From positions 18,179,832 through 18,243,831 of the forward strand of contig OZ038458.1 of assembly GCA_964036195.1 (NCBI GenBank): 64,000 nucleotides of DNA, in the 5' to 3' direction. Numbering within the stretch: position 1 is the first letter of the stretch; each line of letters opens with the position of its first letter. The notes below the pieces were generated by a model that searched no databases, was not told the DNA's origin, and saw only the letters and a program-made list of their open reading frames with translations. Positions 1-50,186 of the stretch are shown here, piece by piece. This DNA is from Sphaerolaimus hirsutus. Lineage: Eukaryota; Nematoda; Chromadorea; Monhysterida; Sphaerolaimidae. The position numbers were made by a program, and so were the translations under genes.

Positions 1-684
1 CCATGAAAAAGGCTGAATGAACTGGCAAGGTTCCAAATTATATCGAATTGTAGACTTTTTGAAGAGAGAAATCCATGTTCTTTTGAGGCATGAAAGCTTT
101 AGAAAGACATCGGGTTTATCTTACATTGATTGTAGCTCACCCTTATCAAGTTGTTCACCAACTTAGCGAACTTAAATACAAAAGGGGTTCAATTTCTATG
201 TTCTGAAGAAATAAATGACAACTGAAAAACAAGTTATTGCTTAAGTATTTATTTTCAATATGAATTCATGATATGAGTTCTAGATGTCAACTAAACAAAA
301 TGTCAGATATGGCGTTATCTTTTATAATAAACCCCTCCCAAAATAATTCAAGTTGACAAGCCAAAACCTGTCAAATTAGAGATGTAAAAATACATGGCAC
401 CTACTTCGCTCATATTTAGAAATTATTAATCCTAGTTGCTAATTTTGCTAGTCAAATAATGAATAAAGATCTCGATCTCAATAATAATTGACATTTGGAA
501 ATCTATAACTCAGATAGGATACTCTTAATATAACTACTAATTAATCGACACTAGCCCTACTTGGGCACCGGGTATTACAACTTGTGCACCGGCCCTACTT
601 GGGCACCGGCTTTACTTGGGCCCACGCCCATCATCAATTCAAACGTAAATCAAAAAACAAAAGTGAAACATCAATTAAACTCAC
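1..684. other. AT-rich stretch, no gene recognised
   Basis: I see no convincing exon here. The stretch is AT-rich. Around 560-625 a short motif (cctacttgggcaccgg) recurs two to three times. It lies downstream of the Merlin exon on the minus strand, so remaining transposase exons would be expected here, but I could not find the later catalytic residues. Confidence 0.4.
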
Positions 685-921
685 TTCGACCACTTTGTGA
701 TCGTTCAACTCGATCAAGCCAAAGATCCACGGCCCGTTGACAGAGGGTCCATAATTTTTGGATCTCGGCGCATATTTGTCACCTTTGAGCCGGCGGCCCT
801 TCCTGTTTGTGTTTGGCTTCCGTCGACCTTTAAGCAGCGTCTCATCGATTTGAACGACGGACCCCGGTGTGGCACCAATCGGGTGTTTTTCCGCAAAAGT
901 AATCCGGTGCGCGTAGATCAA
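685..921 (-). CDS. Merlin/ISXO2-like transposase, catalytic-core exon
   Basis: This exon encodes the first part of a DDE transposase core of the ISXO2/Merlin (IS1595-like) superfamily, which moves DNA elements by cut-and-paste. Seen: the stretch VVQIDETLLKGRRK with the first catalytic Asp (IDE), then a basic insert and GPWIFGLIE, the usual layout after the first Asp. The exon begins after a good acceptor (gttgcag) and ends at an excellent donor (GTCGAA|GTGAGT). It is 79 codons, phase 0 at both ends, matching the upstream exon. The later Asp and Glu/Asp are not visible in the 684 bases that follow, so the gene is truncated or continues beyond the window. Whether it is an active transposon, a relic or a domesticated gene cannot be told. 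Confidence 0.75.
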
Positions 922-983
922 CTGCAACACGTAATATTTTCAAGGAATTCAGGATTTTAAATGACACAAAATAATGACGAAAC

Positions 984-1795
984 TAGTGATGGAAAAGCGC
1001 TAGAAAAAAAATCGCCAGGCGCCAAGGGCGCCACAGAAAAAGGGCGCCAGGCGCCAAGGGCGCCACGGAAAGAGGGCGCCAAGCGCCAAGGGCGCCATGG
1101 CGCCATTTGAAAAATAGGGCGCCAGGCACCAAGGGCGCCAGGATAAATAAGTGCATAGAACGCCATGCGTGTGCTAAAACAGTTTCTACAGCACCCTAGT
1201 ACACACATTCACTACTTAATTCGCGTTCTCCAGGATGTAATGAACAACAACAACACTAGAACAAAAAAAATAAAATAAAATCCACATGACGAATTCAAAC
1301 ACAATGGATATTGTCATTTGATAACAATCCATTCACTTCAAATAGACTGAATCGGACAAAAAATGGAATTGCAACGATTTGAATCTGTTGTTTTTTGATT
1401 TTGCAAGTTCAACGGTTCATCATTCTCGTCTTCTGATCTGTCAGACACATCTGATGGATCGTTGCACAAAAGATTTTCACTCGCTCACACCACTTTGTCC
1501 ATTTTTCTGGCGAATTTAGATCATCCACAGATGCGTTTTTCATCTTTTTTTTCATTTACATAGCACTCACCTTGAAACCCTACTGGCGCCTTTTTGGCGC
1601 CCTTTTAAAGCAGGGCGCCAGGCGCCAAGGGCGCCACTGAAAAAGGGCGCTAAGCGCCAAGGGCGCCATGGCGCCTTTCAGGATGTGGGCACCAGGCACC
1701 AAGGGCGCCACAGAAAAAGGGCGCCAAGCGCCAATGGCGCGGCGCCCTTTGGCGCCCTCAATTGGCGCCAGCGCCATGGCGCCATTCCATCACTA
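984..1795. mobile_element. hAT-like MITE with GGCGCC arrays, perfect 8-bp TSD
   Basis: Termini are TAGTGATGGAA and TTCCATCACTA, flanked by the direct repeat gacgaaac (976-983 and 1796-1803). The 8-bp target duplication and TA-start inverted ends fit the hAT superfamily. The interior is made of GGCGCCAAGCGCC-type repeats at both ends with a unique centre. It lies in the intron between two transposase exons. Same family: 36097-36761, 55616-55894, 59034-59178 and partial copies at 32866 and 63305. Confidence 0.85.
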
Positions 1796-1841
1796 GACGA
1801 AACCATAAACGACACTGAAAAAAATTAAAAATGTAAATAAC

Positions 1842-1950
1842 ATCACGGAAAGCTCTGAGCCAAAAAGTCATTGTCCCAAAGCTGGGCTGCTTTAATCGAC
1901 CGCGACGGGAGTCCATACAGGCATACTGGTCCCTAATCTGATTGCGCGTC
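1842..1950 (-). CDS. Merlin/ISXO2-like transposase, middle exon
   Basis: The exon reads WTRNQIRDQ near its start and TFWLRAFRDV at its end, matching the helical segment before the catalytic core of ISXO2/Merlin transposases. It has 1 base plus 36 codons and ends in phase 0 at GAT|GTTATT, in register with the exon at 685-921. Its upstream edge abuts a palindromic MITE (1951-2203). Joining across that MITE gives LLLVYGFSMG then WTRNQI with no extra or missing residue against the family pattern. Confidence 0.6.
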
Positions 1951-2203
1951 CATGGGGCAGTCCCAAGACATGTAAAGTGTAAAGTAAAATGTCAAATGTA
2001 AAGTCAAATGCAAAGTATAGTTTCAAATTTAGAGTCAAATGCAAAGTAAACTGTCAATTGTCATGCAAAGTTTGACTTTACATGTGTCAAATGTATGTAT
2101 TGACAGTTTACTTTGCATTTGACTTTACATTTTACAGTTTACTTTGCATTTGACTTTACATTTGACACTTTACTTTACACTTTACAGGGCTTGGGACTGC
2201 CAC
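1951..2203 (-). mobile_element. Palindromic MITE acting as an intron in the Merlin gene (GT...TG)
   Basis: A 253-bp near-perfect inverted repeat of aaagtgtcaaatg-type motifs. On the minus strand it starts GTGGCAGTCCCAAG and ends CTTGGGACTGCCCCATG. It lies between two pieces of transposase coding sequence that join in frame when it is removed. No AG lies near the required 3' boundary, so the implied ends are GT...TG (shifts to GG...AT or TG...GG are equally possible). Related copies are at 35584-35705 and 49.7-50.2 kb. Confidence 0.6.
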
Positions 2204-2238
2204 CAGCCCATGGAAAATCCATAAACCAGCAGTAACAC
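2204..2238 (-). CDS. Merlin/ISXO2-like transposase, short exon (LLLVYGF)
   Basis: A 35-bp exon after acceptor aaatttgcag, encoding VLLLVYGFSMG plus two bases. The hydrophobic LLLxY helix is typical of the segment after the N-terminal zinc ribbon in this superfamily. It begins in phase 0, matching the upstream exon, and ends in phase 2, matching the exon at 1842-1950. Confidence 0.55.
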
Positions 2239-2308
2239 CTGCAAATTTAGTAAAATGCACATAATGCCTGCAGGAAAAAACACAGGACAAAGGATGTGTT
2301 CACCTCAC

Positions 2309-2432
2309 CTGCCGCACACTCATAGATCTGAATGTTCTGCCAGTTGTCCTACTTGCATATGCGAAAAAACTGTTGTGCGCGAACGAACGCACTCTTGAGC
2401 AATTTGTGCATCGCGTGGAAGTTTCTGGGGCA
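2309..2432 (-). CDS. Merlin/ISXO2-like transposase, N-terminal exon
   Basis: An open exon from acceptor ccctgacag to donor CAG|GTGAGG, phase 2 in and phase 0 out. It reads CTNCSRVRSFAHNSFF and ends SMSVRQ, consistent with the second half of the N-terminal zinc ribbon and the Ser-Phe-Phe motif of ISXO2/Merlin transposases. A second frame here is also partly open (PQKLPRDAQIAQE), so this choice rests on the downstream phase match and motif order. Confidence 0.5.
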
Positions 2433-2566
2433 CTGTCAGGGTTCCACATCATTGCTCCTGTGCAACTATTTCTAAAACATGGCCCGTAGCTGAAAACGTG
2501 GGGGGAAGTTCATGGGCAGAAACTGTGAGCGTAATTTATCTATGACTTATGTTTATGAATTATGAT

Positions 2567-3097
2567 TAGGGTTCAAACGGGATCCCGATCCCCATCCCGG
2601 ATCCCGTGAAATTCCGGGATTTAGCAGTCCCGATCCCGATCCCGAAACCCCAATCCCGATCCCGATCCCAAAATCCAAAAATACCAATCTCGATCCCGAT
2701 CCCGAAAACTTTCAAATCCCGATCCCGACCCTGAGAATCTCCCAAGTTTGGGATCCCGATCCCGGAAAAAATAGTGGAAATAATGACGTGTTTGCATGCA
2801 AAAATGTGAACGCAAACCCCCAGTGTCCATTTTATGTCACTTTACTGGCATCCAACAGTGTTTTGAGACCTTTATGAACAACTGTGAATGCCAGAACAGT
2901 GACAAAAATCTCTATCACTAGACCCCAATCCCAATCCCGATCCCAATCCCGTGACCCCAATCCTGGTCAATCCCGATCCCAATCCCGAGATCCCGATTCC
3001 ATAAGTCCCGATCCCGATCCCGAAATCTCACTTACCAATCCCGATCCCGATCCCGAAACCTCAATCCCGATCCCGATCCCGAAAAGTCAATCCCGTT
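2567..3097. mobile_element. hAT-like MITE, (GATCCC)n subterminal arrays, right end lost
   Basis: The left terminus TAGGGTTCAAACGGGA is followed by dense GATCCC repeats. The right half has the inverted array and stops at cccgtt where the mate at 57890-58418 continues with tttgaac. The unique centre (ttgcatgcaaaaatgtgaac, then cattttatgtcac) matches the 57.9-kb copy. No right target duplication was found, consistent with terminal deletion. Confidence 0.75.
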
Positions 3098-3139
3098 CTT
3101 TAGCCAATATTTGCATAGTATTAAAAAAAATCTCAACAA

Positions 3140-3572
3140 ACACCCCATCCATAAGTAACCTTTCCTTGTCCCGGAAAAAAGCTACCGGTTTGGGCAACAA
3201 ACCATGTTCCTGTGCAAAACGTATAGCATTGAGCTCGCTTTGCAGGAACTCGCAAGCCCAAAAAGGGGGGCTAGACGGGTGTGTCCGGGCGTGTGGCTCA
3301 TATACAGTTACAGAGTCATCGACGACCACATCAATCGGTACAGGCGGCACAAACGCGGCCACGTCGTCCACCACAACGTCATTGACGACCACATCAATCG
3401 GTACAGGCGGCACAAACGCGGCCACGTCGTCCACCACAACGTCATCAACGACCACATCAATCGGTACAGGCGGCACAAACGCGGCCACGTCGTCCACCAC
3501 AACGTCATCGACGACTTCACCGCGACGAGTTCTGTCCGTGACAACTTCATCGAGGATCAGGGGTCGGTTTCG
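3140..3572 (-). CDS. Acidic repeat protein, 3' exon with 66-bp coding repeat
   Basis: Continues the reading frame of the exon pieces at 3715-4352. It starts RNRPLILDEVVTDRTRRGE, then three copies of a 22-residue block containing VVVDDVAAFVPPVPIDVV, then an unrepeated tail reaching ELNAIRFAQEHGLL. The repeats are 66-bp tandem copies at about 3310-3510, whole codons, so the frame is preserved. I recognise no family. The 3' boundary is uncertain: the frame runs to about 3087, into a hAT relic. Confidence 0.5.
3310..3510 (-). repeat. 66-bp in-frame tandem repeat, about three copies
   Basis: The copies are nearly identical (gacgaccacatcaatcgg recurs every 66 bases). The period is a multiple of three and the minus frame stays open, encoding an acidic and Pro/Val-rich 22-residue block. 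Confidence 0.85.
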
Positions 3573-3714
3573 CAAGTGGAGAAATGAGAAGTAAACAGGC
3601 GAAAGCAAACTGAAATGGCAAGTGAAATTACTTCTTTTTTAATTGTCACTTCGCTTTTTCCAATTGAATAGCCATTTTACTTCAATTTTGCCATTTCACT
3701 TCTCACTTCTCCAC
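3573..3714 (-). mobile_element. 142-bp palindromic MITE between exon pieces, copy 3
   Basis: An inverted repeat starting GTGGAGAAATGAG-like and ending CTCATTTCTCCACTTG relative to the coding strand. It separates exon pieces that rejoin in frame as ...VPQ|RNRPLI. It is one of three equally long inserts (also 3817-3958 and 4061-4202). 142 is not a multiple of three, so retention would shift the frame. Confidence 0.6.
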
Positions 3715-3816
3715 TTGCGGAACTGGCACCAGGTCGTCTGCAGAGAGTTCGACGTCAACGCTGACGTCCTCGACGTCATCGAGATCTTGCTCTCGGCGGA
3801 TCAGGGGCCACTTCCA
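3715..3816 (-). CDS. Acidic repeat protein, duplicated exon copy 2 (34 codons)
   Basis: Encodes WKWPLIRREQDLDDVEDVSV and ends SADDLVPVPQ, phase 0 at both edges. It is identical to the piece at 3959-4060. Both edges are MITE boundaries, so exon status depends on the MITEs being removed. Confidence 0.5.
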
Positions 3817-3958
3817 CAAGTGGAGAAGTTAGAAGTAGAATGGCAAAAGCGAACTGAAATGGCAAGCAAGATTACTTCTTATTTAATTGTCACTTCGCTT
3901 TTTCCAATTGAATAGCCATTTTACTTCAATTTTGCCATTTCACTTCTCACTTCTCCAC
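3817..3958 (-). mobile_element. 142-bp palindromic MITE between exon pieces, copy 2
   Basis: GTGGAGAAGTGAG at one end, CTTCTCCACTTG at the other, with a short loop. Removal joins CCG CAA to TGG AAG in frame. For this copy an AG six bases further (GGAAG|TGG) would also keep frame, so canonical GT...AG is possible here. Confidence 0.6.
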
Positions 3959-4060
3959 TTGCGGAACTGGCACCAGGTCGTCTGCAGAGAGTTCGACGTC
4001 AACGCTGACGTCCTCGACGTCATCGAGATCTTGCTCTCGGCGGATCAGGGGCCACTTCCA
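3959..4060 (-). CDS. Acidic repeat protein, duplicated exon copy 1 (34 codons)
   Basis: Same sequence as 3715-3816, phase 0 to 0. Tandem duplication of a phase-0 exon with its flanking insert lengthens the protein without a frame change. Confidence 0.5.
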
Positions 4061-4202
4061 CAAGTGGAGAAGTTAGAAGTAGAATGGCAAAAGCGAACTG
4101 AAATGGCAAGCAAGATTACTTCTTATTTAATTGTCACTTCGCTTTTTCCAATTGAATAGCCATTTTACTTCAATTTTGCCATTTCACTTCTCACTTCTCC
4201 AC
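4061..4202 (-). mobile_element. 142-bp palindromic MITE between exon pieces, copy 1
   Basis: Same family and length as the inserts at 3573-3714 and 3817-3958. On the coding strand it begins right after CCGCAA with GTGGAGAAG. Confidence 0.6.
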
Positions 4203-4352
4203 TTGCGGAACTGGCACCAGGTCGTCCTCATAGCCCGGGTAAACAACTTGCTCAACTTCGCCACCTAACATCACGACGCTCAAATACACATCAACAGACT
4301 TGTTGACATCAAGTACGTCCACAAGGTTTTCGGGAGGCTCCTCGGGAGGCTC
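4203..4352 (-). CDS. Acidic repeat protein, 5' visible exon
   Basis: 50 codons from acceptor gcaactcag. It begins EPPEEPPENLVDVLDVNK, then SVDVYLSVVMLGGEVEQVV, and ends DDLVPVPQ. If the following MITE were not spliced the frame would add VEK and stop. The strand followed by an acidic run resembles the second exon of the 35-52 kb cluster genes, so this may be a diverged relative. That is inference. Confidence 0.5.
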
Positions 4353-4656
4353 CTGAGTTGCGGTAAAGTAATCGCGACAGGAGTGAGAAAAGAATAATTC
4401 CACCCTCTTAGACGAGAGGAAAAAACACCACCCCCCCTCAAAATAGACCGCCCTCATAAATATACCCATCAACAAATTAAATTGAATTGTAAACTATTCA
4501 ATAGATAAATTTACCGAATCCATAGGACACGATCCTGCCGCCCAAACCGCCCGGCCAAAATAAACAAACGCGCTCTGCAAGAAACTGAACAGTTTAGCAG
4601 AATAGAACAAGTATTAAATATATACCGAGCAAAGTACATGCTAGGGTTCACACATG

Positions 4657-5045
4657 TAGGGTTCAAACGATATATTGTATTGAATATCGAATCTTGGATA
4701 TCGATAATTTTTTAATATTGAATATCGAATATCGATATCGAAAATTTTGAAAAAAATATAGAATATCGACCATTTTTCCGATATACATACATATTGAACC
4801 TGTATTGTGTCCCAAAATTAGGTTATCATTTTCATTTTGAGTTGTTTATGATTGATCTGATGTGCTTCTAGATCTAGTATTGTATTTGAATATCAATATC
4901 GAATATCGAAAAAATCGAATATCGACCATTTTTCAATATCGATATTGAGGTTCCATATCGTATCGATATTGAATATCGAGTTTCAAAAAAATATATATCG
5001 AATATCGAATATCGATATCGAAAAGTCATATCGTTCTAACCCTTA
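4657..5045. mobile_element. hAT-like MITE with (TATCGA)n arrays
   Basis: The left end TAGGGTTCAAACGATAT and right end ATATCGTTCTAACCCTTA are imperfect inverted repeats of the same terminal family as the elements at 7654 and 57890. Here the interior arrays are TATCGATATCGAA instead of GGTCCC or GATCCC. I could not find an exact target duplication. Confidence 0.65.
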
Positions 5046-5177
5046 TGCTATGTGCAACAAACATATGTCTGCAAAATGCATAAATAATTTTCATATAAAT
5101 ATTCTGTTTTCTTTTCTTTATTCAGCAAAATGTCCTCATCAAAATGCAAACAACAACGATATGAAACGATCACACAC

Positions 5178-5865
5178 TAGGGATGGAAAAAAAGCGCTTT
5201 TTTTTAACGGCCCCGCTTTTTTTAAAAAAAAGCGCTTTTTTTTAAAAAAACGCGCTTTTTTCGCTTTTTTTCAAAAAATGTCGGGACGTTCACTAAAAAG
5301 CTCCCAAATATGGTTCTGTATCAATATATACAGGTATATCAGACAAGTGGCAGTACTTGTGATGATATATAGCCATAGAATGGCTGTGTAGCCATAGGAT
5401 AGCATTATAAGTGGCGATTTCTGCCAAAAATACTTTTAATTTTGACTCATTATGTATATCACCCTTTGTGAATGTTTCGCAACTTCAAGTGAAGTGAGGC
5501 ATGAAATAGTGCTTATAAATAAGGCTATAAGAGAAGGCTAATACATTGAGCGTAATGTTTTACACTGTAGAAGTATGTGGTAGGACATTGGCTGGATATT
5601 CTATGCTACACTAACATATCACTACTTGTTATTACATGATAGCATACAGGAATAGAAGCAATGGAACTAAAAATGCCACAAAACCGATGAAAACAACCAC
5701 CAGTGGTAATGTGCATGTGAAATCACGCGCTTGCGCGCGAAAAATTGGAAAATACCTAGTGCATAAGTACTGAAAAATTTTGCGCTGGGACCCTTGCGCT
5801 TTTTTTTAAAAAAAGCGGCGTTTTTTAAAAAAAAAGCGCTTGAAAAAAAGCGCTGGCCATCCCTA
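5178..5865. mobile_element. hAT-like MITE, AGCGCTTTTT arrays, perfect 8-bp TSD
   Basis: Ends TAGGGATGG and CCATCCCTA, flanked by tcacacac (5170-5177 and 5866-5873). Subterminal arrays of AAAAGCGCTTTTTT lie in both orientations. A short relative is at 55948-56027, and a lone right end lies at 36074. Confidence 0.85.
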
Positions 5866-5989
5866 TCACACACCGTGGTGAAAATGCCAAAAAAAAATGC
5901 ATGATCAATAATTGTCACATGACAAGCACGACAAAGTGTGACAAAGCGCTACATATACAAAAATACCAACACATTTACGTTAGCACACA

Positions 5990-6235
5990 CACTAGTTGAC
6001 ACAAAATACCACACACGCTAGTTGATATCAATGTCAACTGGCATGCCAAATGTCAACTGGCATGCCAAATGTCAACTGGCATGCCAAATGTCAACTGGCA
6101 TGCCAAATGTCAACTTGCACCAATCCCAATTTGAAGCTTGCATTAGAACGTCGTTCGCTAGCTCGTCAGCAAAATTAGAATTGGGATCGGAACCAGTTCA
6201 CATTTGGTGTCAATGACAACTACTGTGTGTGTGCG
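5990..6235. repeat. Palindromic repeat with 17-bp array (gtcaactggcatgccaa)
   Basis: Cacacacactagttgaca at the left is mirrored by tgacaactactgtgtgtgtg at the right. Near the left arm the motif gtcaactggcatgccaaat is repeated four times. It is related to the GGGCCCACACACGCTAG palindromes at 33781, 46660 and 53902. Confidence 0.6.
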
Positions 6236-6585
6236 AGCAATACAACATTACAAAACATCTTTCAAAAAATGCAAAAAACAGCATTCCTTAGCAAAAAATG
6301 AATTCAACAGATCAGAAATACACTAGAAAAACAACGTTAAAAAAGCGAGATTTCAATTCACTGTAAATAGGTACCAACAATTTCCTGAAAGCTTTGTGAA
6401 ATTTTTAGGTTTAAATTTCAATTACGTAATTTCATCTGCTTTTTTATGTATTAGAGGTTCGGCAATACCACAACATGGGGCAGTATTCAAGGGTGGGAAA
6501 TATGCAAGAAAATTGTTGGTTGGTTTGCATACCGGACACCGAATTTCCATACCGTAATTTTGACACGTAAATTACAAAAAAATAC

Positions 6586-6795
6586 TCATTCAGTGCAGCG
6601 GGCAGAAATGATCAGGAATGAATCCGCCACCGTCATCAGGTACAGCTGCACGTACACTGAGTCGTCATCATCAGACGTGATGCCATCACAGTCTGACTCC
6701 TTGTCGCTCAACATGTAGACCCTGTCGGCAGAGCGAGGTGGGGATCGACAGCCTCTGCCCCTCTTGTCCTTCTTGCTCTTCTTTGAAGTTTTTTT
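6586..6795 (-). CDS. Gene A, terminal exon (Lys-rich, acidic, beta tail)
   Basis: From acceptor gaacgcag to TGA, phase 0 in. It starts KKTSKKSKKDKRGRG (nuclear-localisation-like), then SDKESDCDGITSDDDDS, then hydrophobic alternation VYVQLYLMTV and stop. The layout of basic start, acidic middle and beta-like C-terminus recurs in terminal exons at 42384-42503 and 36991-37163. An acidic run before a Val/Leu-rich strand could form a SUMO-interacting motif. The family is unknown to me. Confidence 0.6.
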   Translation of the reverse strand, partial: KKTSKKSKKDKRGRGCRSPPRSADRVYMLSDKESDCDGITSDDDDSVYVQLYLMTVADSFLIISARCTE

Positions 6796-6958
6796 CTGCG
6801 TTCAGGGAGGCGAGATTATCTCTAAGCACACCTGTCTTTTTGTCTCAGTCACAGACAATAGTCATCTCCACGAGTACATTGTCTGGTATTCGGTCGGTAG
6901 GCTTTCGGCGAGTTCACCGCGACGGCGGGTTCCACCTCACCTCACCTCCCATACTCAC

Positions 6959-7078
6959 TTTTATGAGACACTTCTCGCCGGCGATAACAACCACCTTGGC
7001 GTCGCGCATGTAGTTTGGCACCGGCTTGCCGCTGCTGCCCATCGGCGCCGTGCTGCTGCTGCTGCCCATCTGCTGCTG
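6959..7078 (-). CDS. Gene A, exon 3 (Gln/Ser-rich, then strand segment)
   Basis: 40 codons, phase 0 at both ends, between an acceptor (aaaatcag) and an excellent donor (AAA|GTGAGT). It reads QQQMGSSSSTAPMGSSGK, then MRDAKVVVIAGEKCLIK. The CAG/AGC codon run is low complexity. It joins in frame to the terminal exon at 6795. Confidence 0.6.
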
Positions 7079-7653
7079 CTGATTTTTGAGCGGGGGGGGC
7101 GGATTGTATACGGAGCCCGGCGAACGGGGGGGGGGAGGCGGCGCCCCCCCCTAAAATTTGTTCCTGTAGTAACGCAATGGGGCCATGGCGCTGGCGCCAG
7201 CGCCATGACTGTATTGGCGTTGGCGCCAACGCCAACGTGTACTATATTGCACTTATTTGTGCCGAAATTTATGGTACCGGGCACTGCTTTGACGGTATTT
7301 GTAGGGGTGATTTCACTCCTGAAAGTAAATTATGAATCATATATAGGGTGCGGTGCAGAAATGCGCCCTTGCGCGCAAAATTTTTGCTAAGTGGCTACAA
7401 AATCGCTTCACAAAAGTGCCGTTCCTGGCACATTTTTTTACCCGGCCCGGGAACGGGTGGGGGCGGCCCGCCCCCCCCCCCTGCGTACGTCCCTGCTAAA
7501 GTCGACAAGTCCACAAAATGTGATTTTGAGTAAATCGCATTTTAAGTTATGAACCCAATTTCAGGTCTGTGGTGCGTGTCCAATTTGGCCCTCTCATGCT
7601 TTCCATTAAGTTCCATATGTTGACAATAAAGTGTCAAATTTTCAGCCCCTAAT

Positions 7654-8202
7654 TAGGGTTCAAATGGGACCGCGGTCCCGGTACCCGGTTCGGCAAAAAG
7701 TCGGGACTGGGGTGGTCCCGGTCCCGGTCCCGGTCCCAACACCCCAGTCCCGGTTCCGACATTCAAAAAATCCTGGTCCCGATCCCAACCACCCAGTCCC
7801 GGTCCCGGTCCCGGTCCCGGAATTTTTCAGTGGTCCCGACTTCGATGATAAGTGATGGAAAAAATGTCGTTTTTTTCATCCCTTCTACAAAAATTTTTTT
7901 CCAACACTCCTAAATATAGTTGCGAGTTAACAAATCAAGGTATACGAGACAAGCGGTATTAGTTTGTGATGTTATGTATAGCATTATAAAAGGTGATTTC
8001 TGCCAAAAAATACACTTCTAACGACCCAGTCCCTGTCCCGGTCCCGACAATCCCAGTCCTGGTCCCGACAATCCCAGTCCTGGTCCCGACACCCCAGTCC
8101 CGGTCCCAGTCCCGGTCCCGACATTCAAAAATTCCTGGTCCCGATCCCGACATTGGAAAATTTCTGGTCCCGGTCCCAAAAACTGGTCCTGTTTGAACCC
8201 TA
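7654..8202. mobile_element. hAT-like MITE, (GGTCCC)n arrays, perfect 8-bp TSD
   Basis: Ends TAGGGTTCAAA and TTTGAACCCTA are exact inverted repeats, flanked by cccctaat at 7646-7653 and 8203-8210. Arrays of GGTCCC (one strand) line both flanks of a short unique centre. Confidence 0.9.
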
Positions 8203-8904
8203 CCCCTAATCTCAACGTATATGTGAAAAATGGGGTGTCCATAAAATTCCATTCGGTCAGAGCAAAACTGTTTTTGGGAGGGAAATGGACTTGTCGCCTT
8301 CTCGCACGCGAGAACATTTTTATTCCCGCCCGCGTTGCGCATCCCTTATGGGAAATTTATGCACTTGTCAACTTTTATAAATCGGTGCCCATAGTGGACT
8401 TATCACATTTCTTGTGTTTTTCCCCATAAAAAAAGGACGCGGAGGATGGACTTGTCAACTTTTAGCCCAAAACTAAGTGGACTTGTCGACTTCTTGCCCA
8501 AATTTTTTTTATTTTTCCCCAAAAATGTCAGATTTGACACTATGCCATATGGGCATGTGAGGTCAAAACAATTATGGAAAATGATGAAAAATCTGCGGAA
8601 ATAGTCACAGATGACGTTTCCGGGCCTAACTCGAAATTTTCATATATTGGACTTGTCGACTTTTAGAATTGGACGCCTCAATTATGAAAGTGGACATTGT
8701 ATTGTATGTACTTTTGTCCGGGACTCTGCAAAAATGAATGGAGTCACGGAAATCTAAAGTAAGTACCGTAATTGGTCCAATAAAGACCCCTCATCAAAAT
8801 GAAAGGTGTATGTACTTTTGTCCGGGACTATGCAAAAACGAATGGAGCCATGGAAATCTACAGTAAGTACAGTAATTGATCCAATAAAGCCCCCCCCCCG
8901 TTAC

Positions 8905-9097
8905 CTGGAACTCGTAATCCTCTGGGATATCTTCAAAACTACAGTCAATCTTTTTCACCAGCGACTCCAGCGGAGGGCGTTGCTCCCAGTCATCATCATT
9001 GCCGTCGTCGTCGTCATCGGCAGCGATCCAATGGTTGCGCATGAAGCGCACGCGGGCAATGATGGGCTCCCCGTGCGCAGTGCCAATGACAACCGAA
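8905..9097 (-). CDS. Gene A, exon 2 (beta strand into Asp-rich tract)
   Basis: From acceptor attttacag to donor CAG|GTAACG. It starts in phase 2, which fits the exon at 11274-11479, and ends in phase 0. It reads SVVIGTAHGEPIIARVRF, then an acidic run AADDDDDGNDDDWEQ, then SFEDIPEDYEFQ. The position and phase match exon 2 of the cluster genes at 35027-35141 and 44995-45120, where a strand segment also leads into acidic residues. Confidence 0.65.
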
Positions 9098-9133
9098 CTG
9101 TAAAATTTCGACAATATGACGATAAAGTGACAA

Positions 9134-9260
9134 CAGGGGTATCTTGAATTTCGACCCTCTGAGTGGTTGGATAGATAACAAATCGCTCCTCCATATGGAT
9201 AGATAGCTAAAAAAATTTCTGGGGGGTTGGGGGGGGGGGTTGGAGGGGGAGTGTGGTGGT
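9134..9260. mobile_element. Left end of a CAGGGGTATC hAT-like element
   Basis: Begins CAGGGGTATCTTGAAT and continues with tggatagata and G-rich runs, as in the complete copy at 56664-57194. No right end is seen before the gap. Confidence 0.6.
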
Positions 9261-9479
9261 TCAATATGAGGGTGTACTAATAGCCACATCTGCTCGTTAC
9301 GCACATTTGCCTGTTTTTTTCACTTAACACTTTTTCGGCAAGGGCCCATTCCGCAAAAAAGCCCATTCCGCATTTTTGCCCATCCCGCAAATTATGTGAC
9401 CCATCCCGCAAATGTGCCCATTCCGCAAACAGGTGATGCAACTTGCGGGATGGGCCATTTGCGGAATGGGCACATTTGC

Positions 9480-9679
9480 NNNNNNNNNNNNNNNNNNNNN
9501 NNNNNNNNNNNNNNNNNNNNNNNNNNNNNNNNNNNNNNNNNNNNNNNNNNNNNNNNNNNNNNNNNNNNNNNNNNNNNNNNNNNNNNNNNNNNNNNNNNNN
9601 NNNNNNNNNNNNNNNNNNNNNNNNNNNNNNNNNNNNNNNNNNNNNNNNNNNNNNNNNNNNNNNNNNNNNNNNNNNNNNN
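9480..9679. other. Assembly gap (200 N)
   Basis: Exactly 200 N, a typical placeholder gap of unknown true length. Flanking repeats (cattccgcaaa-type before, tcgagtcgag-type after) suggest the assembly broke in repeated DNA. Confidence 0.99.
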
Positions 9680-11203
9680 CTCGAAATTTGCCAAATTTCG
9701 AGTCGAGTCAGGCAAAAACCTTGAGTCTCGAGTCAGGGCCATAATTTTCCTGTCGAGTCGGGCGAGTCGAGTCGGTACCCAATTTTACCCTCGAGTCACG
9801 AGCATAGGGGATTTTGGGGTTAGCATTTGGGGGGGGAGGTTAACCTGCCGGCGCGTGCTAATAACTCGGGAACCGCTTGGCGAAAAATGTTGAAATTTGG
9901 ATATGATATAGTTCTAGGTTGGGGCTACGCACAATTTTGACTATTTTTTTCTACGACCCCCCAGACCGGAGATAGGGGGGTCTATAAAAACACTGTCATT
10001 TGCGTTTTTTTGGGTGTCGCCGAGAACATGCAAACTTTGAACATCAATATCTCGGTCATTTGTGAACCGATTTTAGTCATTAAAATGTTAAAATGATCAC
10101 AAATGTTCGGAGCGTTCATTTCTGAGGTCAAATCGGAGATACACATTTGTTTATATATCGATTTAGCCCGATTTCGAAATGCAAAATTTCCGCAAATGTT
10201 TGCTTTTTGAACATGCTATCCTATTCTCCTAATCGAGAGAAACTCAATGAAACAAAATGGAGATCGATATCTCTTTCCGATCAAAAGTTGTGGCGCTTCA
10301 AACTTTTCCCTCCCATCCACATAATTAACCACATGCATGCAACTTCAAAACTCCATATCTCGGCCATTTCTCAGCCGATTTTCACTGATGAACACTTAAA
10401 ATGATCAGAACAACATGTAGATATCATTTTTATCCACAGTTTATTTGTATGCATTTTCATTATGACAATTTAATTCAAGAGTTCGCATTATTTGCTTGTA
10501 TGGGAAATCTGCTGCAAAATACGGATAATCTGGTCCTAAAAATAAAATCTCATGTTATTCTGATCATTTTAAGTGTTCATCAGTGAAAATCGGCTGAGAA
10601 ATGGCCGAGATATGCAGTTTTGAAGTTGCATGCATGTGGTTAATTATGTGGATGGGAGGGAAAAGTTTGAAGCGCCATAACTTTTGATCGGCACTAGATA
10701 TCGATCTCATTTTTCTTTCATTGAGTTTCTCTCGATCAGGAGAATAGGATAGCATGTTCAAAAAACAAACTTTTGCGGAAATTTTGCATTTCGAAATCGG
10801 GCTAAATCGATATATAAACAAATGTGTATCTCCATCTGTGATTTGACCTCAGAAATGAACTCTCCGAACATTTGTGATCATTTTAACATTTTAATGACTA
10901 AAATCGGTTCGCAAATGACCGAGATATTGATGTTCAAAGTTTGCATGTTCTCGGCGACACCCTAAAAAACGCAATTGACAGTGTTTTTATAGACCCCCCC
11001 TATGTCCGGTCTGGGGGGTCGTAGAAAAAAATCGTTAAAATTGTGCGTAGCCCCAACCTAGAACTATATCATATCCAAATTTCAACATTTTTCGCCAAGC
11101 GGTTCCCGAGTTATTAGCACGCGCCGGCAGGTGAACCCCCCCCCCCAAAAATGCTAACCCCAAAATCCCCTATGGTCACGAGTCGAGTCGAGTTCGAGCC
11201 CTA
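9680..11203. mobile_element. (GAGTC)n hAT-like element split by a foldback insertion
   Basis: Clustered GAGTCGAGTC repeats at 9680-9794 and 11183-11195 end at GTTCGAGCCCTA (11192-11203), a terminus that parallels the TAGGGTTCAAAC family ends. The left terminus is lost in or before the gap. The 1.37-kb foldback at 9803-11174 sits inside it and duplicates gtcacgag. Confidence 0.5.
9803..11174. mobile_element. 1.37-kb foldback element with about 620-bp arms, 8-bp TSD
   Basis: The left arm 9803-10417 and right arm 10551-11174 are inverted copies over almost their whole length, leaving a 133-bp spacer. Termini are CATAGGGG and CCCCTATG, and the flanking direct repeat gtcacgag (9795-9802, 11175-11182) is perfect. 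There is no transposase ORF; the mirrored 85-residue frames on the two arms are a consequence of the palindrome. An 8-bp duplication is compatible with hAT-type mobilisation. Confidence 0.85.
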
Positions 11204-11273
11204 CTACCCCCACTCGAATCTAATGTTACCAAACAGCCTTGAAAGCAATCCCAAAAAACAAAAACACACTCAC

Positions 11274-11479
11274 TTCACCACACCCTCAGACAGCTCCAAT
11301 ATAACGCCGCAGCCAGGTACCCTTTCCACAAAATTGCGTTCGATGAAGACGAGCATGGCGCCTTCGCCTTCGGGGACGCCCGCCGGATCTTGTGTTTGCT
11401 GCACAATCCTAGTGGAATATTCCATTTCCACTATGACCAATCGGCGGTTCCGCACGAAAGAACAACGGGCAACAGGCAT
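11274..11479 (-). CDS. Gene A, first visible coding exon (ATG at acceptor, phase-2 end)
   Basis: From acceptor ttttcag|ATG to donor GAA|GTGAGTG. It opens with MPVARCSFVRNRRLVIVE and ends CGVILELSEGVVK across a phase-2 junction to 8905-9097. The same plan (ATG directly after the acceptor, a strand-rich body, a Gly-x-x-Lys end in phase 2) is seen at 43703-43798 with 43419-43567, at 35213-35856, and at 45792-46073. I infer these are paralogous first coding exons. Function unknown. The full chain A = 11479-11274, 9097-8905, 7078-6959, 6795-6586 has consistent phases throughout. Confidence 0.65.
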
Positions 11480-12753
11480 CTGAAAAAGGTCAATAGCCGA
11501 TTATCAATTGGCACAGTTCCAGAAAATTCTCAACGCGGAAAAGGAAACAGGCCGGAGGTTCAATGGCCAATTAGAGCTCTAATTTGGCATAAAACAACAA
11601 CTTACTTTTATCGTTTTTTGTCAGCGATTGTTGTCGGGCTGATGTCGCGGTGAAAAAATCGTCAATTTTGCGCGAACTTTTATCACTCTTATCGGCAGCC
11701 GTTCTTATCAATTCGTTTTTTTTTTCAAAATTATGAGGACTATGGGCGGAGCTTGCGCTTTCCGTGATAGGCTGGATAGGCTTAATAGGCGGGACTTTAA
11801 CGTCCCGATTGCATAAATTACATATTTTACTTACTTTAAATTATGTAAATTACACCAGTTTGGCGTGTTGCCAGAGCTGCGCAATTTGCGATTTATGTAA
11901 ATCACGTTGCGCGAGCTGCGGGATTCGTGCAGTGATTCGCAAATCGCGCAACCACGCAACGCAAACTCCAATGCGTAAATGCGCAGATCAGGTGCTAGTG
12001 CCGCAAATTGAGGGATGAGAAGTCAAGTGGCAAACACAAAGTGAATTGGGATGAAAATTTGCAAAAGCGAAGTGAAATGGCATACGTTTTAACTACAATG
12101 ACCTACAGTACTGTAATTTGTCAGATAACAATTAAATTCCTTGACAATTTTTCATCTTTTTACGCAAATCACATGATTTGATAATCATTGGCACGCTTCC
12201 AACGCGAGACATAAATCAGTGCGAGGGCAGAGTATCATGTACGCCGAGTATATGTATAATACCTTTGTCTGTTGGGTGATCATCATAACTACGTATAGCA
12301 CTGTAGGTACTTGTCAATGTATTTTCTACATGCCATTCTATTTGAGGTGCCACTCTATTAGAAGAAATATGGTACTTGATTTATACTTATCTACAGATGA
12401 GAACGCAACAGATGCCTCGAAAAATTGATTTATTTTATAATTAACACACCCCAAAATCTGTGCGGGTTGCACAAAAAGTGCAAAAACATCAATTTTGATC
12501 ATTTTGACCTAAGCCTATTGATAGGCTTAGGTGTCAAAGTTGCCCGCAGACGCTTCACTCACACGCAAACACTCACAGCACACACTCACACGAACACTGG
12601 TCACCAAACGAAGTCACACCAAAAAATGGTGGTTAATTATGAACGGTTACCACCATAATTACCTATATTCAAATAGAGTCCCCCTTGAAATGAACATTAT
12701 GTGTGTACTTTTGTCCGGAACTATTCTGACATATTGCATGGAAGCAAGCAAAA

Positions 12754-12815
12754 CGGGACGGGATTCGAACCAGCAAAATGAAAAGCACACTGCGCTACAC
12801 TGCACTGCGCATGTC
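12754..12815 (-). repeat. tRNA-like head in satellite (minus), repeated per unit
   Basis: The reverse complement contains an A-box-like TGTAGCGCAGTGTGC and a B box GGTTCGAATCC at RNA polymerase III spacing, without a proper cloverleaf. It recurs in each half-unit (for example 13867-13916, 15533-15595, 18171-18233). It resembles the tRNA-derived head of a SINE. Confidence 0.5.
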
Positions 12816-13233
12816 CCGATTGCATAAATTACATATTTTACTTACTTTAAATTACGTAAATTACACCAGTTTGGCGTGTTGCCAGAGCTGCGCAATTTAC
12901 GATTTAAGTAAATCACGTTGCGCGAGCTGCGTGATTCGTGCAGTGATTCGCAAATCGCGTCAATATAGAAAAGCGGGCAGCGAGTGGAAAAATCGTGATT
13001 CATACCTATTCAAATTAGGGAAATCTACATAACAGGAAATGCCAATCTACATCGTGGGACTTGTAAGAAAATACGGACGGCGTCTAGATAAGCCATTGAA
13101 TATAAACATTCTGGCCTGGGCCTTATACACAGAGAAATACGGTATTTACGTACGACACTGTATTTTGGTACTTTTGTCCATTGGGCAATTGTCACTACTT
13201 ACGACACTATAGAAAGAGTGCAAAATTGCACTT

Positions 13234-13304
13234 GCCTCAGGCGGGAATCGAACCCGCACCTCTCGTATAGAACACGAGTGCCCTAACCACTACACTACAG
13301 AGGC
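13234..13304 (-). tRNA. tRNA-Arg(TCT)-like, weakened D stem
   Basis: 71 nt. Acceptor GCCTCTG/CTGAGGC (one mismatch), anticodon stem CTCGT/ACGAG perfect with loop GTTCTAT (anticodon TCT), T arm GCGGG/CCCGC perfect with GGTTCGATTCC as B box. The D stem reads GTG/GGC, with a G-G clash where the second copy at 26552 has GTC/GGC. A T-run follows within about 15 bases. It is found only in the two satellite units that carry the extra block. It may be a pseudogene copy. Confidence 0.6.
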
Positions 13305-13958
13305 GGCTGGGCTCTTCACTATTAGGGGCTGACATGCTGCATCGGCAATGCCCTTAACACTATGTATGTACCTTTGTCCGTTGGGCAATCATAACTACGT
13401 ATAGCACTGTAGGTACTTGTCAATGTATTTTCTACATGCCGTTCTATTTGAGGTGCCACTCTATTAGAAGAAATATGGCACTTGATTTATACTTATCTAC
13501 AAATGATGAGCACTCAACAGATGTGTCGAAAAATTTATTTCTTTTATAATAAACACACCCCAAAATCTGTGCGGGTTGCACAAAAAGTGCAAAAACATCA
13601 ATTTTGATCGTTTTGACCTAAGCCTATCGATAGGCTTAGGTGTCAAAGTTGCTTGCAGACGCTTCACTCACACGCAAACACTCGCAGCACACACTCACAC
13701 GAACACTGGTCGCCAAACGAAGTCACACCAAAAAATGGTGGTTAATTATGAACGGTTACCACCATAATTACATATATTCAAATAGAGTCCCCCTTGAAAT
13801 GAAGATTATGTGTGTACTTTTGTCCGGAAATATTCTGACATATTGCATGGAAGCAAGCAAAACGGGACGGGATTCGAACCAGCAAAAAGAAAAGCACACT
13901 GCGCTACACTGCACCAAGCTATTTACCTTGTAACGCGTGGGTAAAAACAGGTTGAAAT

Positions 13959-14008
13959 TTGCTGTGGCGCAGTGTTCTTTTGATTTCACTGGTTCGAATC
14001 CCGCTAAG
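13959..14008 (+). repeat. tRNA-like head in satellite (plus), convergent with the minus head
   Basis: GTGGCGCAGTGTTC (A-box-like) is followed by ACTGGTTCGAATCCCGC (B box). It repeats at about 16589, 19230, 21867, 24498 and 27283. A decayed copy outside the array lies at 33005-33050. Confidence 0.5.
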
Positions 14009-14149
14009 TTAGGGCTTGCCTCAAAACGATCATGATTGCCTTTTTGCATTTTTTTGCCAACCCAAAAACATTCACGTTGACAATCAATCTATGCGTGACG
14101 ACACTTCGTGAATCTTCACCGCACATCACACACACACCCCTACCTAGTG

Positions 14150-14210
14150 ATGGAAAAGCGCCATGACGCTGGCGCTAGCGCCAAAGGTCAATTTGGTATG
14201 TATTTGCGCA
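14150..14210. mobile_element. Left end of a TAGTGATGGAA hAT-like element fixed in the satellite
   Basis: Tagtgatggaaaagcgcc opens as in the element at 984 but lacks the right terminus. It is present in every satellite unit (16772, 19417, 22049, 24680, 27466), so it was captured before the array expanded. Confidence 0.6.
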
Positions 14211-17200
14211 TGCGGGGGGGGTCAATCCAGCAAAATTTAATACACATCGGAAAACAGATCACTTATGATTAGCGCTAACTCAAAGCAAAAAGTGCCATGG
14301 CGCAAAATTACCCCCCCCCCTCAAAATTATCACTCAGAAACAATCACCCGCGTGGTAATTTGAGGAAATACGGTAAGTATTTATCTGCATATCTCTCAAT
14401 AGTGACAATCACGTAACTTAGCAGATTTTTAGGGGTCGCACTATTGGACTGGGGTTGCAATAATAGAGTATTTACGGTATGTACATTTGTCCGTTGGGCA
14501 AGTATCACTACGTACGACACTGTATGTACTTTTGTCCATTGGGCAAGTATCACTACCGTATTTCTCCGTGTATAAGGCCCCCCTGATCATAGTGCCCCGG
14601 GCATTATACATTGCCAAAAGTTCCATGCATAGTGCCCGGGCACTGTGCACAGTACTTGGAAAGTGTTCAAATAAAGCCCCCAAATTTGTATAGTGCCCAG
14701 GGCCTTATACGGTATTTACGGATGACACTGTATTTAGGTACTTTTGTCCATTGGGCGATTGTCACTACTTACGACACTATGTATACTCCGATTACTTTAC
14801 ACCTTGCATGCGTGGTTCCCGCTGGAAGTGTGCCAACGGTGGTTAACGCATGTGAGTTTCATAAAAAGATGACAATTTTGATTGTTGTTACAATGTTATT
14901 CATTAACATATTCACATCGATGAATTTTTTTCATCTTTTTACGCAAATCACATGATTTGATAATCATTGGCACGCTTCCAACGCGAGACATAAATCAGTG
15001 CGAGGGCAGAGTATCATGTACGCCGAGTATATGTATAATACCTTTGTCTGTTGGGTGATCATCATAACTACGTATAGCACTGTAGGTACTTGTCAATGTA
15101 TTTTCTACATGCCGTTCTATTTGAGGTGCCACTCTATTAGAAGAAATATGGTACTTGATTTATACTTATCTACAGATGAGAACGCAACAGATGCCTCGAA
15201 AAATTGATTTATTTTATAATTAACACACCCCAAAATCTGTGCGGGTTGCACAAAAAGTGCAAAAACATCAATTTTGATCATTTTGACCTAAGCCTATTGA
15301 TAGGCTTAGGTGTCAAAGTTGCCCGCAGACGCTTCACTCACACGCAAACACTCGCAGCACACACTCACACGAACACTGGTCACCAAACAAAGTCACACCA
15401 AAAAATGGTGGTTAATTATGAACGGTTACCACCATAATTACCTATATTCAAATAGAGTCCCCCTTGAAATGAACATTATGTGTGTACTTTTGTCCGGAAC
15501 TATTCTGACATATTGCATGGAAGCAAGCAAAACGGGACGGGAGTCGAACCAGCAAAATGAAAAGCACACTGCGCTACACTGCACTGCACATGTCCCGATT
15601 GCATAAATTACATATTTTACTTACTTTAAATTACGTAAATTACACCAGTTTGGCGTGTTGCCAGAGCTGCGCAATTTACGATTTAAGTAAATCACGTTGC
15701 GCGAGCTGCGTGATTCGTGTAGTGATTCGCAAATCGCGTCAATATAGAAAAGCGGGCAGCGAGTGGAAAAATCGTGATTCATACCTATTCAAATTAGGGA
15801 AATCTACATAACAGGAAATGCCAATCTACATCGTGGGACTTGTAAGAAAATACGGATGGCGTCTAGATAAGCCATTGAATATAAACATTCTGGCCAGGGC
15901 CTTATACACAGAGAAATACGGTATTTACGTACGACACTGTATTTTGGTACTTTTGTCCATTGGGCAATTGTCACTACTTACGACACTATGTATGTACCTT
16001 TGTCCGTTGGGCGATCATAACTACGTATAGCACTGTAGGTACTTGTCAATGTATTTTCTACATGCCGTTCTATTTGAGGTGCCACTCTATTAGAAGAAAT
16101 ATGGCACTTGATTTATACTTATCTACAAATGATGAGCACTCAACAGATGCGTCGAAAAATTTATTTCTTTTATAATAAACACACCCCAAAATCTGTGCGG
16201 GTTGCACAAAAAGTGCAAAAACATCAATTTTGATCGTTTTGACCTAAGCCTATCGATAGGCTTAGGTGTCAAAGTTGCCCGCAGACGCTTCACTCACACG
16301 CAAACACTCGCAGCACACACTCACACGAACACTGGTCGCCAAACGAAGTCACACCAAAAAATAGTGGTTAATTATGAACGGTTACCACCATAATTACATA
16401 TATTCAAATAGAGTCCCCCTTGAAATGAAGATTATGTGTGTACTTTTGTCCGGAAATATTCTGACATATTGCATGGAAGCAAGCAAAACGGGACGGGATT
16501 CGAACCAGCAAAAAGAAAAGCACACTGCGCTACACTGCACCAAGGTATTTACCTTGTAACGCGTGGGTAAAAACAGGTTGAAATTTGCTGTGGCGCAGTG
16601 TTCTTTTGATTTCACTGGTTCGAATCCCGCTAAGTTAGGGCTTGCCTCAAAACGATCATGATTGTCTTTTTGCATTTTTTTGCCGACCCAAAAACATTCA
16701 CGTTGACAATCAATCTATGTGTGATGACACTTCGTGAATCTTCACCGCCCATCACACACACACCCCTACCTAGTGATGGAAAAGCGCCATGACGCTGGCG
16801 CTAGCGCCAAAGGTCAATTTGGTATGTATTTGCGCATGCGGGGGGGGGGGGGTCAATCCAGCAAAATTTAATACACATCGGAAAACAGATCACTTATGAT
16901 TAGCGCTAACTCAAATCAAAAAGTGCCATGGCGCAAAATTACCCCCCCCCCCCCTCAAAATTCTCACTCAGAAACAATCACCCGCGTGGTAATTTGAGGA
17001 AATACGGTAAGTATTTATCTGCATATCTCTCAATAGTGACAATCACGTAACTTAGCAGATTTTTAGGGGTCGCACTATTGGACTGGGGTTGCAATAACAG
17101 AGTATTTACGGTATGTACTTTTGTCCGTTGGGCAAGTATCACTACGTACGACACTGTATGTACTTTTGTCCATTGGGCAAGTATCACTACCGTATTTCTC

Positions 17201-26200: not shown

Positions 26201-26551
26201 CAGGGCTGCGCAATTTACGATTTAAGTAAATCACGTTGCGCGAGCTGCGTGATTCGTGCAGTGATTCGCAAATCGCGTCAATATAGAAAAGCGGGCAGCG
26301 AGTGGAAAAATCGTGATTCATACCTATTCAAATTAGGGAAATCTACATAACATGAAATGCCAATCTACATCGTGGGACTTGTAAGAAAATACGGATGGCG
26401 TCTAGATAAGCCATTGAATATAAACATTCTGGCCTGGGCCTTATACACAGAGAAATACGGTATTTACGTATGACACTGTATTTTGGTACTTTTGTCCATT
26501 GGGCAATTGTCACTACTTACGACACTATAGAAAGAGTGCAAAATTGCACTT

Positions 26552-35141: not shown

Positions 35142-35212
35142 CTGCGAGAATTTGAAAAATCATGAAATGGGCATGGGTTGTAGAGTTGTGGGCTTAGAAA
35201 TTTATGACTAAC

Positions 35213-35519: not shown

Positions 35520-35583
35520 GTCGATAGCTCCCCCCTGACCTCACGCCGGTCAGCGACATCAACACGGGGGAATTCGCGCCAGC
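35520..35583 (-). CDS. Cluster gene B, exon 1b (WREFPRVDV)
   Basis: Reads GWREFPRVDVADRREVRGEL. It continues the frame of 35706-35856 across a palindromic MITE: TRGP|GWREFP lines up residue for residue with YRSSDWREFV in the uninterrupted paralogous exon at 45792-46073. The downstream limit is uncertain. Confidence 0.55.
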
Positions 35584-35705
35584 CAGGGGGCAGTCCCAAG
35601 TCCAGTAATTGTTTTTGTATCCAAATGTTATTGTTAGCCTTGTTTTGACACATTACTTTGCATTTTAGTTTACATTTGACACTTTACAGGGCTTGGGATT
35701 GCCAC
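35584..35705 (-). mobile_element. 122-bp palindromic MITE between exon pieces (GT...TG)
   Basis: On the coding strand it starts GTGGCAATCCCAAGCCC and ends CTTGGGACTGCCCCCTG. Exact removal restores CGC GGC CCA GGC TGG CGC. A canonical alternative acceptor exists inside the element (acaag|gctaac) that would add about 16 residues, so GT...TG is preferred only by alignment with the paralog. Confidence 0.6.
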
Positions 35706-35856
35706 CTGGGCCGCGAGTGGGCATCGTAACGCGCCAAAGTAGATCGACCATTACGTTTTGGCGGCCATCCTGTTTGAACAGCTTGATATTATCCTTGAAC
35801 GTGGCCGCCAAATCCAGAACATCCAGAACGGGCGGAGGCGCGTGCATCACTTCCAT
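35706..35856 (-). CDS. Cluster gene B, exon 1a (ATG at acceptor)
   Basis: From acceptor cttttcag|ATG. Reads MEVMHAPPPVLDVLDLAATF, then KLFKQDGRQNVMVDLLW. It is similar in layout to exons at 43703-43798 (VQIFKDGNRMDVECC) and 45792-46073 (KLYIEGDHRIMIDMLYG). It ends in phase 1 at CAG|GTGGCA. Confidence 0.6.
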
Positions 35857-49740: not shown

Positions 49741-50186
49741 GACACTACCAGAGCCTGTAAAATTCCCTGCAAAATGTCATGCAAAGTGTCAAGTGAAAGG
49801 TCATGTAAGTTGCCCTGGAAAATGGCAAACAGGTTTGCAATTTTTCAGCGCATATTACATGACTTTTGACACTTTGCATGACTTTTGACAGGGCACATTA
49901 CAGGCTCTGGGACTACCCCCAGGTGGCAATCCCAAGCCCTGCAAAGTGTCAAATGTAAAGTCAAATGCAAAGTAAACTGTCAAATGCAAATTCAAATGCA
50001 AAGTAAAGTGTCAAATGTAAAGTAAAATGCAAAGTAAAGTGTCAAATGTGAAGTAAAGTGTCAACTGTGTATCCAAATTTAACATTTGACACTTTACTTT
50101 ACATTTGGCACTTTACTTTGCATTTGACTTTACATTTGACACTTTACTTTACACTTTAGGGCTTGGGACTGCCCCCAGGTGGGAAA
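49741..50186. mobile_element. Two adjacent palindromic MITEs (aaagtgtcaaatg type)
   Basis: 49741-49918 has agagcctgtaaaattccctg mirrored by ggcacattacaggctctggg. 49919-50180 starts GTGGCAATCCCAAGCCC and ends GGGCTTGGGACTGCCCCCAG on the plus strand. This is the same family as the MITEs between exon pieces at 1951 and 35584, here with an AG at one end. Confidence 0.7.

Follow-up and report, generated by a model that had tools for sequence, protein, structure and literature searches.

A 64,000-nucleotide stretch of the genome of the nematode Sphaerolaimus hirsutus (C14:18179832-18243831, hereafter the window; the genome comprises 348 Mb on 762 contigs) contains genes whose coding exons are interrupted by short palindromic transposons. 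Comparison of the copies indicates that these miniature inverted-repeat transposable elements (MITEs), which resemble the NuwaI group, probably act as introns that are cut at GT...TG, restoring the reading frame. The stronger proposition, namely that TG is the sole 3' splice site of these introns and that a hairpin replaces the requirement for AG, appears to us evenly balanced. An earlier note on this DNA had described palindromic inserts in a Merlin transposase gene and in an acidic coding stretch as introners; the most informative copy (35705-35584), situated in what we call the 35.6-kb gene family, was missing from it. This copy belongs to the first of two MITE families distinguished by their terminal inverted repeats (TIRs), and the features of its gene are as follows:

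35706..35856, minus strand: exon 1 (MEVMHAPPP...MPTRGP, ending in CCA G), starting at the ATG after TTTTCAG.
35584..35705, minus strand: family-1 NuwaI-like MITE as putative intron, 122 nucleotides, GTGGCA...CCCCTG, flanked by CAG and CTG.
35545..35583, minus strand: exon 2 (GWREFPRVDVADR), its end assigned before GTGAGG.

Counting the window copy, exon 1 matches 15 places in the genome. Seven of these copies were read, that of the window and six others picked so as to cover the various degrees of identity. In all seven the MITE's 5' half stands at the same codon, and both edges are present in six, L112 having lost the 3' half. Since L107 and L108 hardly differ from the window copy, the diverged set consists of the window copy, L109, L110 and L111 (the last three at about 78, 73 and 74% identity); L109 and L110 share GTGTCA. 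Removal from GT to TG gives GPGWREF[PT]RV in every one of the six copies with both edges. U2 introns are held to end in AG as a rule; in these six copies the 3' edge reads CCCTG/G (here and below a slash marks the cut). Retention of the MITE would bring between 1 and 10 stop codons into each of the six, and the intron lengths of the four compared copies (122, 122, 531 and 120 nucleotides) are unequal modulo 3. The target copies are CAG before and CTG after the MITE in five of the six and CGG and CTG in the sixth; the difference between CAG and CTG is silent, because it affects only the third base of a proline codon, and CAG before the MITE would be the better donor context.

The ratio of nonsynonymous to synonymous differences per site (pN/pS) was 0.30-0.49 for exon 1 in the six pairs of the diverged set and 0.08-0.31 for exon 2, the latter from few sites and from pairs that are not independent. 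When exon 2 was examined in its three frames, frame X gave a pN/pS of 0.11 versus 1.8 and 1.21 in the other two, and the conserved frame is the one that removal from GT to TG joins to exon 1; a reading of exon 2 in frame Y (AGANSPVLMS) was ruled out by the same test. Purifying selection acted after the insertion, since all four compared copies carry the MITE. A search for in-frame, open GT...AG alternatives (donors from -45 to +80, acceptors up to +25 of the junction) found none in L110 and none in L111. The shared site, the frame-specific selection, the stop codons upon retention and the lack of an AG option in two paralogs make it likely that MITE introns with non-AG ends are real.

The joined peptide was also matched uninterrupted across the site at five distant loci (44-47% identity, E about 1e-5; seen as coordinates only). 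At five loci (C3, C15, C2, C6 and C747) the exons of a second transposase gene, Merlin-2, are preceded, about 2 kb upstream and on the same strand, by a copy of the 35.6-kb gene; the five distant loci, being near five Merlin-2 loci, may be copies of one segment. Another imperfect palindrome, recognized by eye after exon 2 at 35100-35550, suggests that the next intron of the 35.6-kb gene may also hold a MITE.

The family-1 TIR, GTGGCARTCCCAAG, has 1,068 + 1,091 exact matches in the genome (2,159), versus 1 + 0 for the reversed-pattern control, and the family-2 TIR, GCAAGTGGAGAAGTGAG, has 164 + 167 versus 0, so the termini singled out in the earlier note proved abundant, but the enrichment of family 1 in open frames that would be expected of introners failed to appear, as described below. 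Sampling of family 1 drew on 60 segments of contig C1, each 4 kb long, covering 62 of the 100 listed places of the TIR, which together with three copies from the window gave 65 left ends. The insertions follow the pattern CWG-GTGGCARTCCCAAG...CTTGGGAYTGCCCC-CWG with a weaker A/C before and G/T after, which points to a target of about ACCWGGT and a duplication of CWG. At the W position the left copies (n=65) had 34 T, 29 A and 2 G, and the right copies (n=57) had 27 T, 21 A, 8 G and 1 C. Among 64 copies with a right end the target pairs were CTG with CTG (14), CAG with CAG (12), CAG and CTG mixed in either order (9), ATG with ATG (3) and others (26). The left terminus reads GT, and the right one, in the inward direction, GG. 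The commonest lengths are 192 bp (17/57) and 223 bp (8/57), and copies of these lengths are mostly 96-99% identical among themselves.

For family 2, 16 of 331 places were sampled and both inner TIRs were present in 8 of them. These eight copies point to the outer ends CWG-GTGCCAGTTCC...GGAACTGGCCCC-CWG, or more fully CWG-GTGCCAGTTCCGCAAG...CTTGCGGAACTGGCCCC-CWG, longer than had been described before. In the five copies with both outer ends legible by eye (L079, L083, L084, L087, L092), CWG stands on each side in all five, W is equal in two, and one end is of GT type and the other of GG type in all five. Both families thus carry the 3-bp CWG target duplication of the NuwaI type, family 1 also has TIRs in short elements, and by these marks both look NuwaI-like and related to PIF/Harbinger; what had been taken for two distinct families looks like one type with a CWG target and one GT end. 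Of the 35 family-1 copies flanked by CAG or CTG at either end, 9 pair A with T at the W position, as do 3/5 of family 2, which is commoner than scattered mutation predicts; copy exchange or a quirk of transposition could be the cause. Given a GT end and a CWG target, roughly one insertion in two will read GT...TG even if nothing is spliced. The pairing of GT at one end with AG or TG at the other consequently stems from insertion and is no evidence for splicing.

A related MITE of 110 nucleotides splits a catalytic motif of Merlin-2 at L114, where TCC TG/GTGCCAATCCC...CCCTCTG/G TCT GCT TAC would be joined to encode SDSWSAYK. Five Merlin-2-type loci break at that residue (one read, four taken from the match table); six copies of the window's own transposase gene, Merlin-1, and 12 other loci run through the site, 6 of the 12 with stop codons. 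Exon F of Merlin-1 compared with that of Merlin-2 gives a pN/pS of 0.32, with synonymous sites near saturation. The features of Merlin-1 are:

2309..2452, minus strand: Merlin-1 transposase exon A.
2204..2238, minus strand: exon B (VLLLVYGFSMG-W); the A/B intron of the model is canonical (CGGCAG/GTGAGG...TTTGCAG).
1951..2203, minus strand: family-1 MITE between exons B and C, 253 nucleotides, GTGGCA...CCCATG, target duplication CTG and ATG.
1842..1950, minus strand: exon C (TRNQIRDQ...RD).
685..921, minus strand: exon D (LIYAHRIT...QIDETLLKGRRK...VVE).
Beyond the window start: exons E and F, at 3655-3727 and 3803-4143 of L069.

Spliced together, exons A-F encode 313 amino acids that match PF12762 (E 2.3e-18) and contain QIDET, SDSWAAY and IEGVW, in agreement with an IS1595 DDE domain; we take these to be the catalytic motifs, and Merlin to be the proper name for an element with this domain. 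A protein search with the 313 residues found nine homologs, among them transposases of Thelohanellus and Stylophora, and one with a partial Merlin protein of 175 residues gave no matches. The remaining introns of the model are GT-AG, as is the A/B intron in L072, L073, L074 and L077. The MITE at 1951-2203 is a palindrome with arms of 103 nucleotides, 91% complementary (fold z -23.2), and splits GGC TG/G ACG in the SMGWTRN junction region, which upheld the claim that it lies between Merlin pieces joining in frame. Such rejoining is trivial by itself as evidence, because any insertion restores the old frame when it is removed with one target duplication. The site is uninterrupted, without gap or MITE, in 8/8 paralog exons read.

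This MITE is 82% identical to its nearest sampled relative and is, judged by divergence, older than the bulk of family 1; about 8 private changes in about 212 bp were counted by eye in a 16-copy alignment. The six copies of Merlin-1 stem from one recent segmental duplication of more than 5 kb with 99-100% identity (C6:11.930 Mb and 11.956 Mb, C14:13.44 Mb and 18.18 Mb, C322, C508), in which the two C6 copies are mutually inverted and the numbers of 63-bp and 244-bp repeats vary among segments. This rules out that Merlin-1 moved on its own as an element carrying the MITE. In the canonical intron between exons C and D, at 980-1795, there is a repeat with the ends CTAGTGATGGAA...TTCCATCACTAG, which looks like another MITE and from its ends is presumably hAT-like.

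Upstream of exon A the following features were placed:

3140..4400 (limits approximate), minus strand: acidic N-terminal coding stretch of the Merlin-1 gene, open once three MITEs are removed.
3558..3729, minus strand: family-2 NuwaI-like MITE with target copy, GTGCCAG...CCCCTG, 172 nucleotides.
3802..3973, minus strand: family-2 MITE in the second unit of a 244-bp tandem repeat, 172 nucleotides.
4046..4217, minus strand: family-2 MITE in the third unit of the 244-bp tandem repeat, 172 nucleotides.

The acidic stretch consists of a 24-codon unit (IRREQDLDDVEDVSVDVELSADDL), 63-bp repeats and then PPFW...AIRFAQEHGLLPKP. It had been regarded as a gene separate from Merlin; it is rather the 5' part of the same gene, because Merlin-2 (L114) carries a homologous NPPFWNLDFLKGELEAIRFAQSEGLLPSP upstream of its exon A. 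The edges of the inserts, previously set at 4202-4061, 3958-3817 and 3714-3573, were moved outwards to those listed by the anatomy of family 2, and the frame stays open after removal with either set. Lying within a tandem repeat, the three inserts probably go back to one event.

In each of the four coding insertions (35.6-kb family, Merlin-1 family 1, Merlin-1 family 2 and Merlin-2) the GT end comes first on the coding strand and the 3' end is TG, an agreement that is suggestive only. In the folds of six 35.6-kb introns and of the Merlin-1 and Merlin-2 MITEs the hairpins bring the ends close; stable pairing of this kind, joining both intron ends, is the mark of euglenid-type introns, and MITE descent alone predicts it. 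The following course of events may be proposed. NuwaI-like MITEs would insert at CWG within ACCWGGT, producing CWG/GT...CCC-CWG, and when the GT end comes first in a coding exon, the RNA hairpin would draw the ends together. The transcript would be cut at GT and at the TG of the second target copy, and the old frame would return, the spliceosome taking GT in the normal way and accepting TG since the hairpin presents it. We infer that removal takes place in RNA and exactly from GT to TG, not at the equivalent slides GG...CT or TG...GG. The spliceosome would perform it with the help of the hairpin, and U1 small nuclear RNA is present in the genome, 25 of the 26 matches listed exceeding the cut-off. 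An alternative route, removal free of the spliceosome as proposed for euglenids, is possible.

Several observations weigh against MITE introns cut at GT...TG. The best surviving of the other explanations, which we regard as unlikely, holds that these are ordinary MITE insertions in dead or dying transposon genes, where GT...TG reflects merely the GT end and the CWG target; the GT and WG ends are indeed intrinsic to both families. In the joined flanks of the 57 family-1 copies with both ends (3 of them from the window), frames with at least 40 open codons on each side were found in 5/57 in sense and 3/57 in antisense, versus 12.2% of 1,744 random control positions, hence no enrichment of family 1 in open frames over control. 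That the family lies mostly outside long open frames weighs against a bulk introner. Family 1 is, on this sampling, an abundant MITE that sometimes makes an intron. The introner claim of the earlier note is thus supported in part, as regards MITE-derived introns with apparent GT...TG ends, for which the 35.6-kb family and Merlin-2 speak best; as with introners, similar elements are found at the inferred introns of several genes (35.6-kb family, Merlin-1 and Merlin-2).

Merlin-1 taken alone is a weak case for an intron. The probability that its MITE-split frame acquired no stop since the insertion is 0.23-0.34 from substitutions only (3.3-3.8% divergence), and 0.01-0.03 once an assumed indel rate is added, so its open frame is possibly due to chance. 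Merlin-1 has FW where 8/8 paralogs have DW; against Merlin-2, pN/pS is 0.59 in exons B+C, with synonymous sites near saturation; and its six copies, being one large duplicated segment, are not independent moves. As regards the 35.6-kb gene, exon 2 has only about 39 nucleotides and the following exon is unplaced, no match was found in Pfam or PDB, and the five distant-locus matches are 3-5 codons shorter than the query stretch and hence gapped somewhere. From its position upstream of Merlin-2 at five loci, the gene may belong to that transposon or to its gene. Against insertions in dead genes, however, the 35.6-kb family shows purifying selection in the exons before and after the MITE, along branches every one of which carries it.

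It is quite unlikely, in our estimate, that the MITEs are introns in which canonical GT-AG sites inside or beyond the element are used at the price of small changes in the protein. In-frame GT...AG options do exist: 11 in L109, 4 each in the window copy, L107 and L108, five in Merlin-1 and three in Merlin-2, and TTTACAG lies just inside the 3' end in 12/16 aligned family-1 copies. The earlier statement that no AG is available near the 3' edge of 1951-2203 thus holds for the edge itself but not for its surroundings. However, L110 and L111 offer no such option within the range searched, and the options elsewhere drop or pad residues: all five of Merlin-1 delete exon residues (such as TRNQIR) and some add MITE codons, all three of Merlin-2 delete residues after SDSW (e.g. 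SAYKCLAQ), and the internal TTTACAG of the Merlin-1 MITE reads TTTACATG. Removal at the DNA level, by which precise excision of a Harbinger-type MITE would restore the gene in some cells, is very improbable: Tourist-like PIF/Harbinger MITEs generally excise precisely, but mismatched duplications lowered the repair of mPing excision sites and raised footprints (PMC4561436, in the parts consulted), and the 35.6-kb site is mismatched in all six copies with both edges, L110 having in addition altered ends and extra repeat sequence inside the MITE.

Elsewhere in the window the following was found:

49923..50175, plus strand: third family-1 copy, with CAG and CAG target copies.

This copy looks to be situated within a longer intron of a minus-strand gene, and at 49740-50178 two palindromes of related type stand head to tail with CCCCCAGGT, common to both, between them. 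A tandem array with a unit of about 2.6 kb occupies 12556-28000, in the region of which there are two tRNA-Arg (TCT) genes, at 13233 and 26551. A Pfam search of two minus-strand frames of positions 1-14999 gave no matches. In the mitochondrial COX1 gene (contig C762), 14 TGA codons stand for Trp and AGA is found at conserved Ser positions, which fits invertebrate mitochondrial code 5. Of 7,999 matches to COX1, 120 were listed; the best of these bear no label and stand at 89, 79 and 70% identity, and the ones with a species or group name are insects, or groups to which insects belong, at 64-67%.

The comparisons with known systems that follow draw on parts of the cited papers. Introners are non-autonomous DNA transposons with TIRs and target-site duplications, which carry one splice site and obtain the other from the duplication (PMC9860276, PMC7789003). 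The present elements are alike in that insertion and removal leave the length of the protein unchanged, and unlike in that most sampled copies lie outside open frames and that the target copy supplies TG, not AG, as the 3' site in the cases that allowed a judgement. In Amoebophrya non-canonical introners were described with U1 undetected (PMC7789003), unlike here, where U1 was found in the genome. The NuwaI group of the PHIS (PIF/Harbinger) superfamily makes 5'-CWG-3' duplications, has TIRs and occurs mainly in animals (PMC4482050); the CWG duplication, the TIRs and the animal host agree, whereas the pairing of a GT end with a GG end is an observation of the present analysis. With the nonconventional introns of euglenids and hemistasiid diplonemids (PMC4770533, PMC12621601) our elements share non-canonical ends, a hairpin joining the ends and a proposed MITE origin, but they reside in an animal genome, keep the 5' GT, stand beside GT-AG introns in the same genes and belong to a MITE family with recognisable young copies.

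In human U2 introns, as far as the parts used of the survey extend, TG is a 3' splice site only as an alternative beside AG and never the sole one (PMC2374985). What the two share is a GT intron that closes with TG; the difference is that in two paralogs here no frame-keeping AG competitor exists within the range searched, which makes the present case a surprising variant of transposon-derived introns. The GA/GG donors of the copepod Eurytemora affinis (PMC5714493) are likewise recently gained non-canonical animal introns, the donor being altered there and the acceptor here. A literature search limited to open-licence papers found no MITE-made intron with TG as its sole 3' end.

If TG is indeed the sole 3' splice site of these introns, any MITE that combines a GT end with a CWG target would be a ready-made intron in either orientation of the target. 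Intron birth could then be followed where the parent element and its target rule are known and the 3' splice site is relaxed. These genes would offer a natural system for asking whether RNA structure can replace AG, and would link MITE-derived introns of animals with the hairpin introns of euglenids and diplonemids.

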